From Chloroflexota bacterium (lineage in GTDB: Bacteria > Chloroflexota > Anaerolineae > UBA2200), in assembly GCA_014360905.1 (NCBI GenBank), contig JACIWW010000017.1, positions 1-63,254 of the forward strand: a stretch of 63,254 bases of DNA, in the 5' to 3' direction. Positions 53,335 to 59,263 of the stretch are shown piece after piece. The notes beneath the pieces are model-generated. The model worked only from the letters and a program-made list of their open reading frames with translations. It ran no database searches and had not been told where the DNA came from. The position numbers and the translations under genes were made by a program. Within the stretch, counting starts at the first letter, position 1, and each line of letters begins with the position of its first letter.

Positions 53335-56040
53335 ATGATACAAATGATGGCCCAAAAAGCCCTTTTGAAAACGTATCTGAAGCAACTGACGGATGTGATC
53401 CGTGCGGGTGATGCCCGCGAGGAGAGTTTCTACCCTGCGCTGGCCGACCTGATCCGGCAGGTGGCCCAGGCAACTGGACGCCCCGAAATCCAGGTGACAG
53501 TCCTGCCTCGCCCCACCGAAGCCGGCAACCCAGATTTCCGCGTCTGGGATGGCACCAGCCGCATCGTCGGCTACCTCGAAGCCAAGCCTCCCACCGAAGA
53601 GTTTTTGGATCGCTTCGAAGACTCCGAACAGTTGCAGCGCTATCGGAGCACCTTCCCCAATCTCATCCTGACCAATTTCCTGGAATTCCGCCTCTACCGC
53701 AACGGTGAACGCATCATGACGGCGCAACTTGGCCGGCCAAGGGTGCTGACAGCGCTTCAACAGACTCCGCCAATGGAGCACGCCGAGGAGGTCTGGTCGC
53801 TGCTGGAGCAATTCCTGGCTTTCTCCCTGCCACGGCCACTCACTGCCGAGAGCCTGGCTGTTGAACTGGCCAAGCGTACCCGCTTCCTGCGGGATGTCGT
53901 GCGCCAGGAACTGGCCATGGAACAGGAAGCAGGCAAGGGGCGTCTCCGTGGTTTTTACGAAGCCTTCCAAAAATTCCTCATCGGCAGCCTCACCCCCGAG
54001 GAATTCGCCGACCTCTACGCCCAGACGGTCACTTACGGCCTATTTGCTGCTCGCACACGTGCCACCGACGGGTTCTCACGTGTGGCGGCTTTCCACCATA
54101 TTCCCCACACCATCGGCATCCTGCGCGACCTGTTCCGCTTTATCTCGCTGGAGGACCTGCCGGAGGAGATGGCCTGGATCGTGGATGACATTGCCCACGT
54201 GCTGGCGGTGGCCGATGTCTCCGGGATGATGTCCCAATTCTATCGGGAAGGCAAGGGGGATGACCCCATCGTGCACTTTTACGAGACCTTTCTGGCCCAC
54301 TACGACCCCGAAGAGCGCGAACGCCGGGGTGTGTACTATACGCCCGACGCGGTGGTCTCGTACATCGTGCGCTCGCTGCACCTTTTGCTGAAAACCCGAT
54401 TTGGCAAGTCCGATGGCCTGGCTTCGGACGGCGTGACCCTGCTCGACCCGGCCGCCGGCACGATGACCTTCGTCGCCCGGGCTGCGGAACGGGCCGTCCA
54501 GGAGTTTGTCGCCGAGTACGGTTCGGGCGGACGCGAGGAGCTCATCCGCAAGCACATCCTGGGCAACTTTTACGCTTTCGAGTTGATGATGGCGCCCTAT
54601 GCGGTGGGGCACTTGAAAATGGCCTTCTTCCTGGATGAATTGGGGCATCGGTTGCGGGAGGACGAGCGCGTTCCGTTCTACCTGACGAACACCCTGGACA
54701 TGAGCGAACTGCAAGCCAGCCAACTGCCGGGTCTCTCCTCGCTGGCGGAGGAATCGCACCTGGCCGGACGGGTGAAGCGAGAGCAGCCCATCCTGGTCAT
54801 CCTGGGCAATCCGCCCTACTCCGGCCACTCGGCAAATAAGGGCGAGTGGATCCTGCGCCAGATCGAGACCTACAAGCAGGTGGACGGCAAGCCGCTGGGC
54901 GAAAAGAACCCCAAATGGCTGCAAGATGACTATGTCAAGTTCCTGCGCTTTGCCCAATGGAAGATCGAACAGGCCGGGCGCGGCGTGGTGGGGATGATCA
55001 CCAACCACGGCTATCTGGACAACCCCACCTTTCGTGGCATGCGCCGCAGCCTGATGCAGACCTTCGACGAGATCTACCTTCTGGACCTGCACGGCAACGC
55101 CCTGAAGCGAGAGCGCTGTCCCGACGGTAGCCCCGACGAGAACGTCTTCGACATCCGCCAGGGGGTGGCGATTGCCCTTTTTGTAAAGCTACCCCATACC
55201 CCCTCCGAGCTTGCGGGGAGAGGGCTGGGAGGAGGGGTCTACCACGCCGACCTGTGGGGCCTGCGGGCAGACAAGTATGGTTGGCTGAAGGAGCACGATG
55301 TAACCACCACGCCCTGGGCGAAAATCCACCCCCGCCCGCCGTTTTACCTGTTTGTGCCGCGGGAAGAGGCCGAACTGGAGCGCTACAACGCCTTTCCTAG
55401 CGTGACGGACATCTTCGAGAAGTACAGCGTGGGCATTGTTACCGCCCGCGATAAGCTGACCATCCGCTGGACACCACAGGAAGTATGGACGACGGTACTC
55501 AACTTCTCCCGCCTGGACCCGGAACTGGCCCGCCAGGCGTATGGGTTGGGCAAAGATGCGCGCGACTGGAAGGTAACTCTGGCTCAAAAAGACCTGCACG
55601 ATTCCGGCCCGGAGCGGGACAAGGTGGTGCCCATCCTCTATCGGCCTTTCGATGTGCGTTATACCTACTACACCGGCCGCTCGCGCGGCTTCCTGTGCAT
55701 GCCCCGCCCCGAAGTCATGCGCCACATGCTGGCGGGGGAGAATGTGGCGCTGTGCATCGGGCGGCAAGGGCAAGCAGTAGGTGGAGAGGTATGGAATCTA
55801 GCCTACTGCTCGGCTCATGTTGAGGACCTCAACCTGTTCTACCGCGGCGGGAATGTGAATTTCCCTCTGTATCTCTACCCGCGGCGGGAATGTGAATTTC
55901 CCTCTGTATCTCTACCCGCAGCCGGAACGTCAGAGCACCCAGCTAGGTCGCCAGGAGGAAATGTTCAGCGACTCAGCACCGCAGGAGCGCCGGCCGAATC
56001 TGAAGGCGGAGCTGCTGGCGATGTTGCAAAAGGCGTATAA
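53335..56040 (+). CDS. Type ISP/IIG-like restriction-modification enzyme, C-terminus frameshifted
   Basis: A large single-chain RM protein. N-terminal nuclease-like motif: NPDFRVWDG followed by IVGYLEAKPP, a PD-(D/E)xK pattern near residues 65-85. A helical coupler follows, then an N6-adenine methyltransferase with RRGVYYTPDAVVSYIV, LLDPAAGTMTFVARA (motif I) and VILGNPPYSGHS (motif IV NPPY, near residue 498). The target-recognition half follows. Residues about 618-635 (PHTPSELAGRGLGGG) are encoded by a GC-rich palindromic repeat absent from relatives. After residue about 845 a 37-bp duplication throws the frame into nonsense to 56040; the true continuation is the next entry. Residual methylation or cutting is uncertain because the specificity domain is lost. 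Confidence 0.88.
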   Translation: MIQMMAQKALLKTYLKQLTDVIRAGDAREESFYPALADLIRQVAQATGRPEIQVTVLPRPTEAGNPDFRVWDGTSRIVGYLEAKPPTEEFLDRFEDSEQLQRYRSTFPNLILTNFLEFRLYRNGERIMTAQLGRPRVLTALQQTPPMEHAEEVWSLLEQFLAFSLPRPLTAESLAVELAKRTRFLRDVVRQELAMEQEAGKGRLRGFYEAFQKFLIGSLTPEEFADLYAQTVTYGLFAARTRATDGFSRVAAFHHIPHTIGILRDLFRFISLEDLPEEMAWIVDDIAHVLAVADVSGMMSQFYREGKGDDPIVHFYETFLAHYDPEERERRGVYYTPDAVVSYIVRSLHLLLKTRFGKSDGLASDGVTLLDPAAGTMTFVARAAERAVQEFVAEYGSGGREELIRKHILGNFYAFELMMAPYAVGHLKMAFFLDELGHRLREDERVPFYLTNTLDMSELQASQLPGLSSLAEESHLAGRVKREQPILVILGNPPYSGHSANKGEWILRQIETYKQVDGKPLGEKNPKWLQDDYVKFLRFAQWKIEQAGRGVVGMITNHGYLDNPTFRGMRRSLMQTFDEIYLLDLHGNALKRERCPDGSPDENVFDIRQGVAIALFVKLPHTPSELAGRGLGGGVYHADLWGLRADKYGWLKEHDVTTTPWAKIHPRPPFYLFVPREEAELERYNAFPSVTDIFEKYSVGIVTARDKLTIRWTPQEVWTTVLNFSRLDPELARQAYGLGKDARDWKVTLAQKDLHDSGPERDKVVPILYRPFDVRYTYYTGRSRGFLCMPRPEVMRHMLAGENVALCIGRQGQAVGGEVWNLAYCSAHVEDLNLFYRGGNVNFPLYLYPRRECEFPSVSLPAAGTSEHPARSPGGNVQRLSTAGAPAESEGGAAGDVAKGV
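55189..55238 (+). repeat. GC-rich palindromic repeat, copy 1, inside the RM gene
   Basis: The stretch contains ACCCCCTCC, GCTTGCGGGGAGAGGG, and GGAGGGGTC. It matches the order of words in the 56041-56096 copy and is translated in frame as part of the RM protein. CTACC occurs at 55189-55193 and again at 55239-55243, possibly a target duplication. The encoded Pro/Gly-rich stretch replaces a short loop between IALFVK and VYHADLWG. Confidence 0.7.
55844..55917 (+). repeat. 37-bp exact tandem duplication that breaks the RM frame
   Basis: Two identical adjacent 37-bp units, 55844-55880 and 55881-55917. Because 37 is not a multiple of three, the second copy shifts the frame. Removing one copy joins NLFYRGGNVNFPLYLYP directly to QPERQSTQLG. 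Confidence 0.97.
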
Positions 56041-56989
56041 CCCCACCCCCACACCCCCTCCCCGCTCACGGGGAGGGGGCCAGGGGGAAGGGTCAAGATG
56101 GCGTACCCCGCCGCACCTCTGGGGAAAGCTCAAACCCCTCGCCCAGGAGATGCGGCAGCATCCCACAACCGCGGAGGAGATGTTGTGGCAACACCTGCGG
56201 CGTAAACAGCTCTTGGGATACAAATTCCGGCGTCAACACGCTATTGAGCGCTTTATCGTGGATTTCTACTGTCGGGATGCAGGGCTGGTTATCGAGGTGG
56301 ATGGGCCCGTCCATCAATACACCGCAGAGGAGGACGCCATTCGCCAGGAGTTCCTGGAAAGCATAGGACTGCGGGTGCTGCGTTTCACTAACGAACAGGT
56401 GATGACCGACATCGAGGGGGTGCTGGGGACGATTGCCCGCGCCCTCCAGGAAGCGCAACCGGCGACATTTACGGCCATAGCCCCGGAGCAGGTATTTCAC
56501 TACATTTACGCCGTGCTCTACGCGCCCACCTATCGGGAAAAGTACGCCGACTTCCTGCGCCTGGACTTCCCCCGCATCCCCTTCACCAGCGAGGCGGCGC
56601 TCTTCGCCGAACTGACCGCGCTCGGCGAGAGACTGGTCGCCCTGCATCTGCTCCGCTCGCCCGACCTTGACCAACCCACCTGCCGCTTCGAAGGGACAGG
56701 AGATGGCCGCGTGGTCAAACTCGCCTATGATGCCCTCACGGAACGGGTGTCCATCAACCCCACGCAGTACTTCGCGCCGGTTCCCCTGGAGGTGTGGGAA
56801 TACACCATCGGCGGCTACCAGGTGTGCGAGAAATGGCTGAAGGACCGGCAAGGGCGGAACTTGACGCTGGATGAGATCCGTACCTATTGCCGCGTCGTGA
56901 CCGCTCTGAAGAAAACGATCGAGGTTCAGGAGGAGATTGACGGGCTTTATCCGCGAGTGGAGCAGGCGCCGCTGTTGCTGAAAATCTAG
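55892..56989 (+). CDS. RM specificity C-terminus with inserted DUF559 nuclease domain
   Basis: This 365-residue frame is the displaced end of the RM gene, not an independent gene: its GTG lies within the duplicated 37 bp. Residues about 1-50 (NLKAELLAMLQKAYN) and 190-365 (APEQVFHYIYAVLYAPTYRE, VWEYTIGGYQVCEKWLKDRQ, RTYCRVVTALKKTIEVQEEI) are the usual type ISP specificity region. Between them are a Pro/Gly-rich linker from the palindromic repeat and a DUF559 domain (about 78-187): MRQHPTTAEEMLWQHLRRKQ, FRRQHAIERFIVDFYC, LVIEVDGPVHQY, GLRVLRFTNEQV. DUF559 belongs to the PD-(D/E)xK/Vsr-like superfamily. The insertion is in frame on both sides. Confidence 0.8.
   Translation: MNFPLYLYPQPERQSTQLGRQEEMFSDSAPQERRPNLKAELLAMLQKAYNPTPTPPPRSRGGGQGEGSRWRTPPHLWGKLKPLAQEMRQHPTTAEEMLWQHLRRKQLLGYKFRRQHAIERFIVDFYCRDAGLVIEVDGPVHQYTAEEDAIRQEFLESIGLRVLRFTNEQVMTDIEGVLGTIARALQEAQPATFTAIAPEQVFHYIYAVLYAPTYREKYADFLRLDFPRIPFTSEAALFAELTALGERLVALHLLRSPDLDQPTCRFEGTGDGRVVKLAYDALTERVSINPTQYFAPVPLEVWEYTIGGYQVCEKWLKDRQGRNLTLDEIRTYCRVVTALKKTIEVQEEIDGLYPRVEQAPLLLKI
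56041..56096 (+). repeat. GC-rich palindromic repeat, copy 2, at the DUF559 junction
   Basis: CCCCTCCCCGCTCACGGGGA with flanking C- and G-runs and an AGGGTC end. Same word order as the 55189-55238 copy. It is translated as TPTPPPRSRGGGQGEGS and immediately precedes the DUF559 domain. Confidence 0.75.
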
Positions 56990-57101: not shown

Positions 57102-57326
57102 GTGGACCAAAATGAGATTGCGCTTGCGTTCGATATCGTCCTTGAGGAAATAGAGAAGGCTATTGCGGCACTTGATCAAAAAGGAGCACTAGCGTTCCAA
57201 ACCGGTTTATTCACCATCGCGAGTGCCCTTGGAGAAAGCGAGGATACCAATAATGGCGACGGTAAAAGTAGAAGATTACCTGGCAACCCTCAGAACACTG
57301 AAACCCGAATTGGCTGTGCGTTATAA
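57102..57326 (+). CDS. Short hypothetical ORF, possibly truncated
   Basis: The 74-residue frame starts at GTG with AGAAGGG upstream. Residues 2-33 (EIALAFDIVLEEIEKAIAAL) are a convincing amphipathic helix, like the start of small helical proteins seen beside defence genes. The rest is polar, low-hydrophobicity sequence and overlaps the antitoxin gene by 74 bp in another frame, so it looks truncated. No family assigned. Confidence 0.4.
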   Translation: MDQNEIALAFDIVLEEIEKAIAALDQKGALAFQTGLFTIASALGESEDTNNGDGKSRRLPGNPQNTETRIGCAL

Positions 57327-57552
57327 AGTCAGGTCAATCGGGCTCTTTGGTTCCGTCGTTCGCGGAGAACAGGATCAAGCAAGCGATATAGACTTATTGG
57401 TAGATTTTGAAGAGGATGCGGACTTGCTTGACTTGACCGGGTTAGCCCTGTTTCTAGAGCAAGTGTTTCAGCGGGAAGTAGACATCGTTCCCCGAAGGGC
57501 ATTGCGGGTGGAACTACGTTCAGCAATTTTGCGTGAGGTTATACCCGCATGA
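57253..57552 (+). CDS. MNT-type nucleotidyltransferase antitoxin
   Basis: A 99-residue minimal nucleotidyltransferase. IGLFGSVVRGEQDQASDIDL has the GSxxR and DxD motifs, and the third acidic residue is in VDIVPRRAL. Such MntA proteins neutralise HEPN RNases by AMPylation. The ATG at 57253 follows GAGG. The HEPN partner that should follow is only an 18-codon stub overlapping by the ATGA at 57549, so the antitoxin appears orphaned. Confidence 0.85.
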   Translation: MATVKVEDYLATLRTLKPELAVRYKVRSIGLFGSVVRGEQDQASDIDLLVDFEEDADLLDLTGLALFLEQVFQREVDIVPRRALRVELRSAILREVIPA

Positions 57553-57605
57553 GAGATCATCGGCTCTACTTGAAAGACATCCTAGCAGCAAAGGAGGATA
57601 TGTGA
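57549..57605 (+). pseudogene. HEPN (DUF86) toxin stub, 18 codons
   Basis: The frame ATG...TGA encodes MRDHRLYLKDILAAKEDM, which matches the beginning of DUF86 HEPN proteins (MRDxRLYLxDIL). It starts in the usual overlap with the MNT gene. It stops after 18 codons, and the GmrSD-type gene starts within its stop (GTG at 57602). The rest of the toxin, including the RxxxxH RNase motif, is absent. A recombination event therefore joined the stub to the next gene. Confidence 0.65.
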
Positions 57606-59263
57606 TTTCCAAGGTTAATCCACCCAAGACAAATCCCGAAAAACTTCTCACAATTATCGAGGACGCATATCACGGCAAAGTCGTACTGCCGGAATTTCAA
57701 CGGTCTTTTGTGTGGACCCGCGAGAACATCGAGGAGTTGCTCGTCTCGATTTTGCAGGGATACTTCATTGGCACATTTCTTATACTGGATACCCCGCCCG
57801 AACAAGCGATATTCCCCTTTCGCGTTGTTGAGGGATTAGAAACCCTCGGGGCAAAGCCCAACAACCATCCAACAGTTCGGCTTGTATTGGACGGACAACA
57901 GCGCATTACCTCGCTCTTTTATGTGCTCTACGAGCCGAAAATACCTTTGGGCAAAAGCCAAAACCCATATCGTTTTTTTCTGCGCCTTGATGCCTTGATG
58001 GATGGCAACCCAGACGATGCCGTCTATGGTGTTTCTCTTGCCGACCGCCGGCGCCTAGCTGAGATGCAAGCAATGCTCGAGGTCGGAAATGTTATTGCTT
58101 TCCCCTTGTTTCGAGACTCTGGTAAGTTCTATCACTGGCTATACAACGAACAACAAAAGTTTGTTGCCCAGGAGGAAAAGGACATCCTTGAAGGTTTCTA
58201 TCGCCGTTTTGCCGACTTCATGGTGCCGGTAGTCTCAGTTTCTCCCGAAACGGGCAAGGAGAATATCGTCAACATTTTCGAGCGCATTAACCGCACAGGA
58301 GTGAGCCTCTCTTTATTCGATCTCGCGGTTGCTCGCCTGTATCTGAAAGGCATAGATTTGCGCAAGCTGTGGCAGGTTTTCTCCAAGAACAATAGGGAAC
58401 TTGCAAAAATTATTAAACCGGAGTTTGTGCTCAAAGTGATCGCGCTTTTTGAAGGCAAAGAGGTGCGGAAGAGTGCTTTGCTGGATGTCATTGATGAACT
58501 CGAAAAATCGCGCTTTGAGAAATTATGGGAGCAGGCATGTTCTTCGCTTGAAAAGGCTTATCAGCGCGTTACTTCGCCAGATGGCTATGGGGCTGTTGCC
58601 CAGCGATGGATCCCCTACAGTACCCTTCTGGTTCCTTTGGCAGTGCTGCTTCATCTTGTGGCTGAGAAACATGGTGGAGAAGTCATGTATCGCAAGGTGG
58701 ATCGCTGGTATTGGGGAAACGTCTTTGCTCAACGCTATGATCAGGCCGTAGATACTACCACTTACCGAGATGTACGGGAAATGAAAGAATGGTTGGATGG
58801 TGGAAACTGCCCAATATGGCTGGAGAATCTGAATATAGAGCAGGTAGACCTCATGAGTATCCAAGACCAACGCTCGGCAGTCTATCGTGGACTCATGTGT
58901 CTGATTGTGCTAGCGGGCGGAAGGGACTTTATCAACGGCCAACCTGCCGTTTTAAAAACTTGCCAGGATGACCACATTTTCCCAAGGTCAGAATACAAGA
59001 GCGAAGCCCAGGTGAACTGTATCCTCAATCGGACACTGATTTCATCCAATCAAATCAAAGGGAACAAGAAGCCATCCGTATACCTACCACTCTTCCTGAA
59101 AGAGCACGGTGGGGACAAAGAACGCTTACGCCAGACCCTCCAAAGCCATCTGATTTCCGAAGAAGCGCAACAAGCGATGGAAAGGGATGATTTCCAGACC
59201 TTTATTGAATGCCGCAGACGCACATTTCTAAATGAGATAGTCAATCGTGTAAGGGGGAAGTAG
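57602..59263 (+). CDS. GmrSD-type DUF262/HNH endonuclease-like protein
   Basis: A 553-residue protein. The N-terminal DUF262 (ParB/sulfiredoxin-like NTPase) has LPEFQRSFVWTRENIEELL and RLVLDGQQRITSLFYVLY. The family signature continues with NIVNIFERINRTGVSLSLFD. The C-terminal DUF1524-type HNH motif is DDHIFPRSEY (near residue 457), followed by LNRTLISSNQIKGNKKPSVY. GmrSD enzymes cleave modified phage DNA, which is the best guess here. The GTG start at 57602 follows GGAGG inside the HEPN stub. Both modules are in one chain. Confidence 0.85.
   Translation: MISKVNPPKTNPEKLLTIIEDAYHGKVVLPEFQRSFVWTRENIEELLVSILQGYFIGTFLILDTPPEQAIFPFRVVEGLETLGAKPNNHPTVRLVLDGQQRITSLFYVLYEPKIPLGKSQNPYRFFLRLDALMDGNPDDAVYGVSLADRRRLAEMQAMLEVGNVIAFPLFRDSGKFYHWLYNEQQKFVAQEEKDILEGFYRRFADFMVPVVSVSPETGKENIVNIFERINRTGVSLSLFDLAVARLYLKGIDLRKLWQVFSKNNRELAKIIKPEFVLKVIALFEGKEVRKSALLDVIDELEKSRFEKLWEQACSSLEKAYQRVTSPDGYGAVAQRWIPYSTLLVPLAVLLHLVAEKHGGEVMYRKVDRWYWGNVFAQRYDQAVDTTTYRDVREMKEWLDGGNCPIWLENLNIEQVDLMSIQDQRSAVYRGLMCLIVLAGGRDFINGQPAVLKTCQDDHIFPRSEYKSEAQVNCILNRTLISSNQIKGNKKPSVYLPLFLKEHGGDKERLRQTLQSHLISEEAQQAMERDDFQTFIECRRRTFLNEIVNRVRGK

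Follow-up and report, generated by a model that had tools for sequence, protein, structure and literature searches.

A DUF559 nuclease inserted in frame in a Chloroflexota restriction-modification gene: a probable copy of a hairpin-bounded, homing-endonuclease-like element

Homing nucleases are thought to require self-splicing introns or inteins in order to inhabit conserved genes. The locus described here raises the question of how a nuclease of the homing type might persist within a coding sequence with neither. The window (i.e. the whole stretch analysed, positions 1 to 63,254 of the forward strand of contig JACIWW010000017.1, assembly GCA_014360905.1) derives from a Chloroflexota bacterium of the class Anaerolineae (UBA2200). 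At positions 53335-56989, it contains a single-chain restriction-modification (R-M) gene of the ISP/IIG type, for which Pfam matches an N6 methyltransferase and a Type_ISP_C specificity domain, and a DUF559 nuclease domain preceded by a GC-rich palindrome lies in frame within this gene. We propose that the insert is probably one copy of a small selfish element, similar to a homing endonuclease gene, that would persist as an unspliced domain of its host protein. The evidence, which is of sequence level, consists of insertions that preserve the frame, their repeat bounds, the occurrence of both filled and empty alleles, changes of host, disagreement between insert and host trees at a site in MetH, conserved catalytic residues and purifying selection.

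The insert is positioned in the linker of the target recognition domain (TRD), between model positions 1-157 of Type_ISP_C in the upstream open reading frame (ORF) and 167-339 in the downstream ORF (Table 1). A first-pass annotation, made from the sequence alone, had described a DUF559 domain inserted into the specificity domain. Comparison with empty homologues bore this out, defining an insert of ~146 codons with the borders given by that annotation. In the nearest homologue among 249 genomes of the class (i.e. L081, 83% identical), SQAYHREVTPEEVFHYIYAVLY replaces QKAYN-insert-APEQVFHYIYAVLY of the window, and the nearest homologues are without the DUF559 insert (QAYHREVTPEEVFHYIY). A short linker, QAYHREVTPEEVFHYIYAVLY, takes its place in L081 and most other homologues, and the genome's own second ISP gene is likewise empty, with a short linker at this site. 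Only three of 23 aligned ISP homologues are filled at the window's site and the closest relatives are empty, indicating that the domain is not an ancestral feature of ISP enzymes, which the annotation had named as the finding that would speak against it. The same domain was observed in the same ISP linker in a second genome (G019, locus L051), so that insertion at this position is not a matter of chance. On the ISP host tree, a single clade of the three filled genes was rejected (p 0.02) and a clade of the window gene and L051 alone was not rejected (p 0.09). The dN/dS ratio (non-synonymous to synonymous substitution) of this pair was unusable because dS was saturated.

Table 1. Positions of the R-M gene, its insert and associated repeats in the window.
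Feature	Positions	Strand	Evidence or remark
N-terminal and methyltransferase part with first TRD half, 901-aa ORF	53335..56040	+	Pfam N6_Mtase, Type_ISP_C 1-157; PADLOC
In-frame palindromic repeat, LPHTPSELAGRGLGGG, with no nuclease, second site (site b) of the gene	55189..55236	.	L045 and L048 filled with DUF559 at this site
Frame-shifting exact 37-bp tandem duplication	55842..55915	+	two overlapping ORFs
Second ORF, 365 aa: end of first TRD half, insert, second TRD half	55892..56989	+	Pfam Type_ISP_C 167-339
GC-rich palindrome, pyrimidine arm first, translation NPTPTPPPRSRGGGQGEG	56040..56093	.	near-perfect arms 56040-56064/56069-56093
Whole insert, ~146 codons	56042..56479	+	comparison with empty L081, L082, L083, L089, L091
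DUF559 (EDxHD, Vsr-like) nuclease domain, all invariant residues retained	56129..56446	+	Pfam E 9e-37; alignment A1; AF2/fold match

The inserted domain matched PF04480 with an E-value of 9e-37 and 125.7 bits (cut-off 20.6) and retains all of the residues that are invariant in alignment A1 (i.e. E24, D53, D66, H70 and D77, A1 numbering). In an AlphaFold2 (AF2) model of the 365-aa ORF, the domain was predicted with a pLDDT of ~70-97 and was flanked by disordered linkers. This modelled domain matched in fold 3hrl at Z 16.3, I-Bth0305I (a homing endonuclease) at Z 13.3 and Vsr at Z 10.4. The remainder of the model exhibited a weak match to the type ISP enzymes LlaGI and LlaBIII. The A1 profile also detected I-Bth0305I by sequence (E 1e-5), and DUF559 has previously been assigned to the EDxHD homing family (PMC9403480). 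When Caulobacter cells are without a cytosine methyltransferase, DNA damage depends on VsrA, a DUF559 protein with residues that match the DUF559 catalytic set (PMC12907096), suggesting that DNA is acted on by family members in vivo. For the copies described here, nuclease activity and a target for this activity are inferred from sequence.

Related loci were searched for with a second alignment, A2, as A1 was too diverse. In 60 loci of the window's class, pyrimidine-first palindromes were present within 150 bp of DUF559 at 3.0-4.7 per kb as compared to 0.0075 per kb in control DNA (400 kb in 20 stretches of 20 kb, all of it from the class to which the window belongs). This ~400-600-fold enrichment was observed at free-standing DUF559 genes as well as at embedded ones. 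A palindrome was located within 300 bp of DUF559 in 73 of 80 named loci from several phyla, these being the best matches of one scan and hence not an even sample of bacteria, versus 7 of 660 control windows. The objection, raised with the first-pass annotation itself, that no other DUF559 gene might be linked to such repeats is removed by these densities and counts. Polarity was nearly uniform, with 145 pyrimidine-first and two purine-first palindromes in both sets together, and was constant among phyla in which the repeat sequences differ. By hand count, the best match of the left flank was the right flank of the same locus, as a direct repeat, in 37 of the 60 loci. At the upper end, these direct repeats were 96% identical over 109 bp, or 93% over 214 bp. 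A fixed orientation of the C-rich tract outside each flanking hairpin was looked for and not found, the flanks being direct or inverted depending on the locus. As a consequence of this variation, inverted terminal repeats are described only for the duplicated MetH copy presented below.

These repeats could instead be ordinary REP- or MITE-like elements (i.e. repetitive extragenic palindromes or miniature inverted-repeat transposable elements) that depend on some other enzyme for their movement (a RAYT transposase, for example), with DUF559 being cargo or a trapped gene. Mobilisation of REPs by RAYTs is known (PMC8049555), and repeats without DUF559 do occur in these genomes, including site b of the window's ISP gene and a further Mod gene (L394) of the same genome, which has an in-frame insert consisting of the repeat alone. 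This insert was one of 20 matches obtained in the 2.83-Mb genome of the window with a looser palindrome pattern, most of which belong to a different, longer and mainly intergenic repeat. The palindrome core itself, CCCCTCCCCG-N-CGGGGAGGGG, was found at two places in this genome, each adjoining one of its two DUF559 matches, and in another genome (G227, 4.67 Mb) all four palindromes are at the DUF559 locus. An association restricted to the immediate flanks of DUF559, with the same polarity across phyla despite differing repeat sequences, counts against passive cargo, as do the retained catalytic residues and the signs of purifying selection on the nuclease. This explanation was considered unlikely, if still the strongest of the rivals. 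As a separate observation, the longer dispersed repeat (hairpin core CCCCTCTCCTACAGCGTAGGAGAGGGG) has ~13 copies, mostly intergenic, on contigs C12, C16, C21 and C23 of the window's genome (G000).

Palindrome-flanked DUF559 domains, in frame and without an intein, were detected in at least 14 further protein families from the window's class and other phyla. Hosts with large open frames within the class were ISP genes at three sites, Mod, Eco57I, MmeI, a DUF1156 methylase, a TIR-nSTAND1-FGE protein and MetH, to which the 80 named loci added LeuRS, IleRS, MetH at two other sites, RecJ, MutA, PaaZ, PyrF, a CoA-transferase and HsdR. The linkers around these copies, which have no Hint domain, are Pro/Gly stretches encoded by the repeats. 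In five flavobacterial genomes, the sole leuS gene above the cut-off has the DUF559 insert. Most LeuRS relatives have a short linker at the insertion site, and the filled LeuRS copies were confirmed by direct reading; one filled strain is Leeuwenhoekiella marinoflava DSM 3653. At the LeuRS site, 87 of 243 genomes (by hand count) gave split matches that were initially taken for inserts; a sample of 20 consisted mostly of short linker variants, and the figure was not used as a count of filled genes. Two LeuRS genes (L369 and L379) contain a divergent DUF559 and no Pro/Gly repeat linkers, and may be decaying or domesticated copies. In a further LeuRS (L365), the loop has another kind of in-frame insert (TERHTERSRSASDEES...) and no nuclease.

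Movement between hosts was examined on a tree of 72 embedded DUF559 copies, which required at least 26 host changes, with few columns and many weak forks. The clearest case was a site in MetH, between INR and xHEIAVHT, at which 13 of the 37 host genes analysed in one family were filled, always with repeats on both sides. The DUF559s at this site form one clade (99/98), and their nearest kin is an Eco57I insert from another family. Filled MetH hosts were scattered among empty ones, requiring at least eight changes, and their grouping in one clade was rejected (p-AU 4e-58). A disagreement between the insert tree and the MetH host tree would not be expected from many losses. The MetH site exhibits site-specific spread among alleles that is independent of the tree of the host gene. 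One MetH gene (L393, of G577) contains two DUF559 inserts that are 82.5% identical over 418 bp, with the similarity beginning and ending at inverted copies of the hairpin repeat (AGCCCCCC..CCCCCAAAGGGGGAGC / GCTCCCCCTTTGGGGG..GGGGCT). The two nuclease ORFs differ with a dN/dS of 0.05, which points to purifying selection on DUF559. In the first-pass annotation, a mobile repeat-plus-nuclease unit able to enter coding DNA had been suggested; the palindrome linkage, the Hint-free in-frame copies in many genes, the host changes and the L393 duplication ending at hairpin repeats lend this suggestion strong support and extend it well beyond the window gene. A phage origin was considered and set aside, with relatives being present in only 3 of 50,697 phage records.

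Recruitment of DUF559 host by host as a functional domain (e.g. an additional nuclease for a restriction enzyme), with the Pro/Gly stretches as mere flexible linkers, would fit the many R-M proteins among the Anaerolineae hosts, and the LeuRS copies lacking repeat linkers (L369 and L379) could be domesticated. No benefit of a nuclease is evident for LeuRS, IleRS, MetH, PyrF or MutA, however, while the sites are empty in close relatives and the insert and host trees differ at the MetH site. Furthermore, the linkers are DNA palindromes that are also present beside free-standing DUF559 genes. We regard recruitment as improbable.

The absence of splicing was assessed by scanning the host proteins. 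No Hint or intein-splicing domain was found in the window ORF or in the scanned MetH, LeuRS, IleRS and RecJ copies, and no Rfam intron was found for the inserts, so that the filled host proteins are predicted to remain unspliced. The only other DUF559 of the window's genome (C13:29023-29334 of G000; L002, L079) is located in a type III Mod-like methyltransferase, within a Hint-type intein that has an in-frame palindrome; intein_Cterm of NCBIfam scored above its cut-off and the Pfam intein splicing domain below. Related inteins were observed at L055, L059, L063, L064, L075, L076 and L077. The description of the unit as unspliced in the first-pass annotation agrees with the scans of the window, MetH, LeuRS, IleRS and RecJ copies but does not extend to every DUF559 of the clade, some of which are in true inteins. 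That the insert is a degenerate intein or in-frame intron, removed after all, is scarcely credible, since the eight intein-borne DUF559s of the class, although related, form a clade of their own and the Hint and intron searches of the embedded copies were negative.

In the reading that we prefer, the element is an ORF for a homing-type nuclease (DUF559/EDxHD) with GC-rich hairpin repeats, pyrimidine arm first, as its bounds, and would settle in host genes, in frame, at loops and at linkers between domains. As neither the repeats nor the nuclease interrupt the reading frame of the host, translation would yield one unspliced chain with an additional tethered domain, and the element could thereby persist in essential genes with no need of an intein or intron. 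The in-frame state would be maintained because only in-frame insertions survive in genes that the host needs. Spread would occur mainly among alleles of one gene, with the nuclease cutting an empty allele and repair copying the element into it; cleavage of empty alleles and the copying step are both inferred here. Moves to new genes would be rare and probably proceed via repeat homology or repair at hairpins, and repeat-only inserts (i.e. site b of the window gene and the Mod gene L394) may represent targets or scars.

Several observations weigh against this reading. Repeats are also found without DUF559, so that another agent could move them, and many embedded DUF559 copies have repeats on one side only. 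The DUF559 tree is based on ~105 columns and has many open forks, and the MetH tree does not separate gains from precise losses. The window copy itself is without a right-hand repeat, which it has either lost or never had, and sits in a frameshifted host gene.

The element was compared with several known systems. EDxHD (Vsr-like) homing endonucleases of the I-Bth0305I type share the catalytic fold and residue pattern, and a site-specific spread among alleles like that at the MetH site. Homing endonuclease genes of this type are carried in introns, inteins or between genes, whereas the inserts described here are bare in-frame host domains bounded by hairpin repeats, in none of these settings, and no attached DNA-binding modules were seen. 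Rickettsia palindromic elements (RPEs) are likewise palindromic selfish DNA situated in frame in unrelated protein genes (PMC10969869), but are ~150 bp in length with no nuclease domain, as compared to a complete nuclease between repeats of another sequence. Inteins with a Vsr-like/DUF559 nuclease contain related DUF559s in methyltransferase genes of the same organisms and the same kind of palindrome, but the window, LeuRS, IleRS and MetH copies lack the splicing domain. REP/RAYT systems (REPINs) also have hairpin repeats around a nuclease-type gene with more repeats elsewhere in the genome; here a nuclease of the PD-(D/E)XK type takes the place of the HUH tyrosine transposase, and insertion is into coding DNA, in frame. 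No paper joining an EDxHD nuclease to in-frame palindromes, or describing unspliced nuclease inserts in genes of this kind, emerged from a search of the openly licensed literature on palindromes, in-frame insertion, DUF559 and Vsr-like nucleases. Membership of DUF559 in the EDxHD family and in-frame palindromes (i.e. as RPEs) were already known, and there is a fair chance that the nuclease element constitutes a class of its own. More tentatively, and with chances a little short of even, such a class (hairpin, EDxHD nuclease ORF, hairpin) might extend across bacteria, lodged in interdomain stretches of essential proteins as a permanently translated in-frame domain in place of protein splicing, with the hairpins serving as substrate of its own nuclease and movement occurring without a transposase.

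The element seems to manage without intron or intein: in several phyla, LeuRS, IleRS, MetH, RecJ and restriction enzymes appear to contain it as a domain that is not spliced out. If true, this would explain the frequent GC-rich palindromes next to DUF559 genes and imply a selfish origin for many inserted protein domains. The role and mover of bacterial hairpin repeats, a long-standing question, would also become testable.

The host gene in the window was labelled by PADLOC as a type IIG REase-MTase, and no helicase was among its Pfam matches. Both flanks of the insert had been described as in frame; this was correct downstream but upstream only back to ~55892, where an exact 37-bp tandem duplication (55842-55878 identical to 55879-55915) shifts the upstream methyltransferase/TRD frame, such that the gene as assembled comprises two overlapping ORFs. 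Mutation, phase variation or misassembly could each account for the duplication, and slippage between the two copies could act as an on/off switch for the R-M gene. Downstream, region 57223-59263 of the window encodes a GmrSD_N and HNH protein that is similar to candidate defence families in PADLOC, and its start is overlapped by a small nucleotidyltransferase-like ORF (NTP_transf_2).

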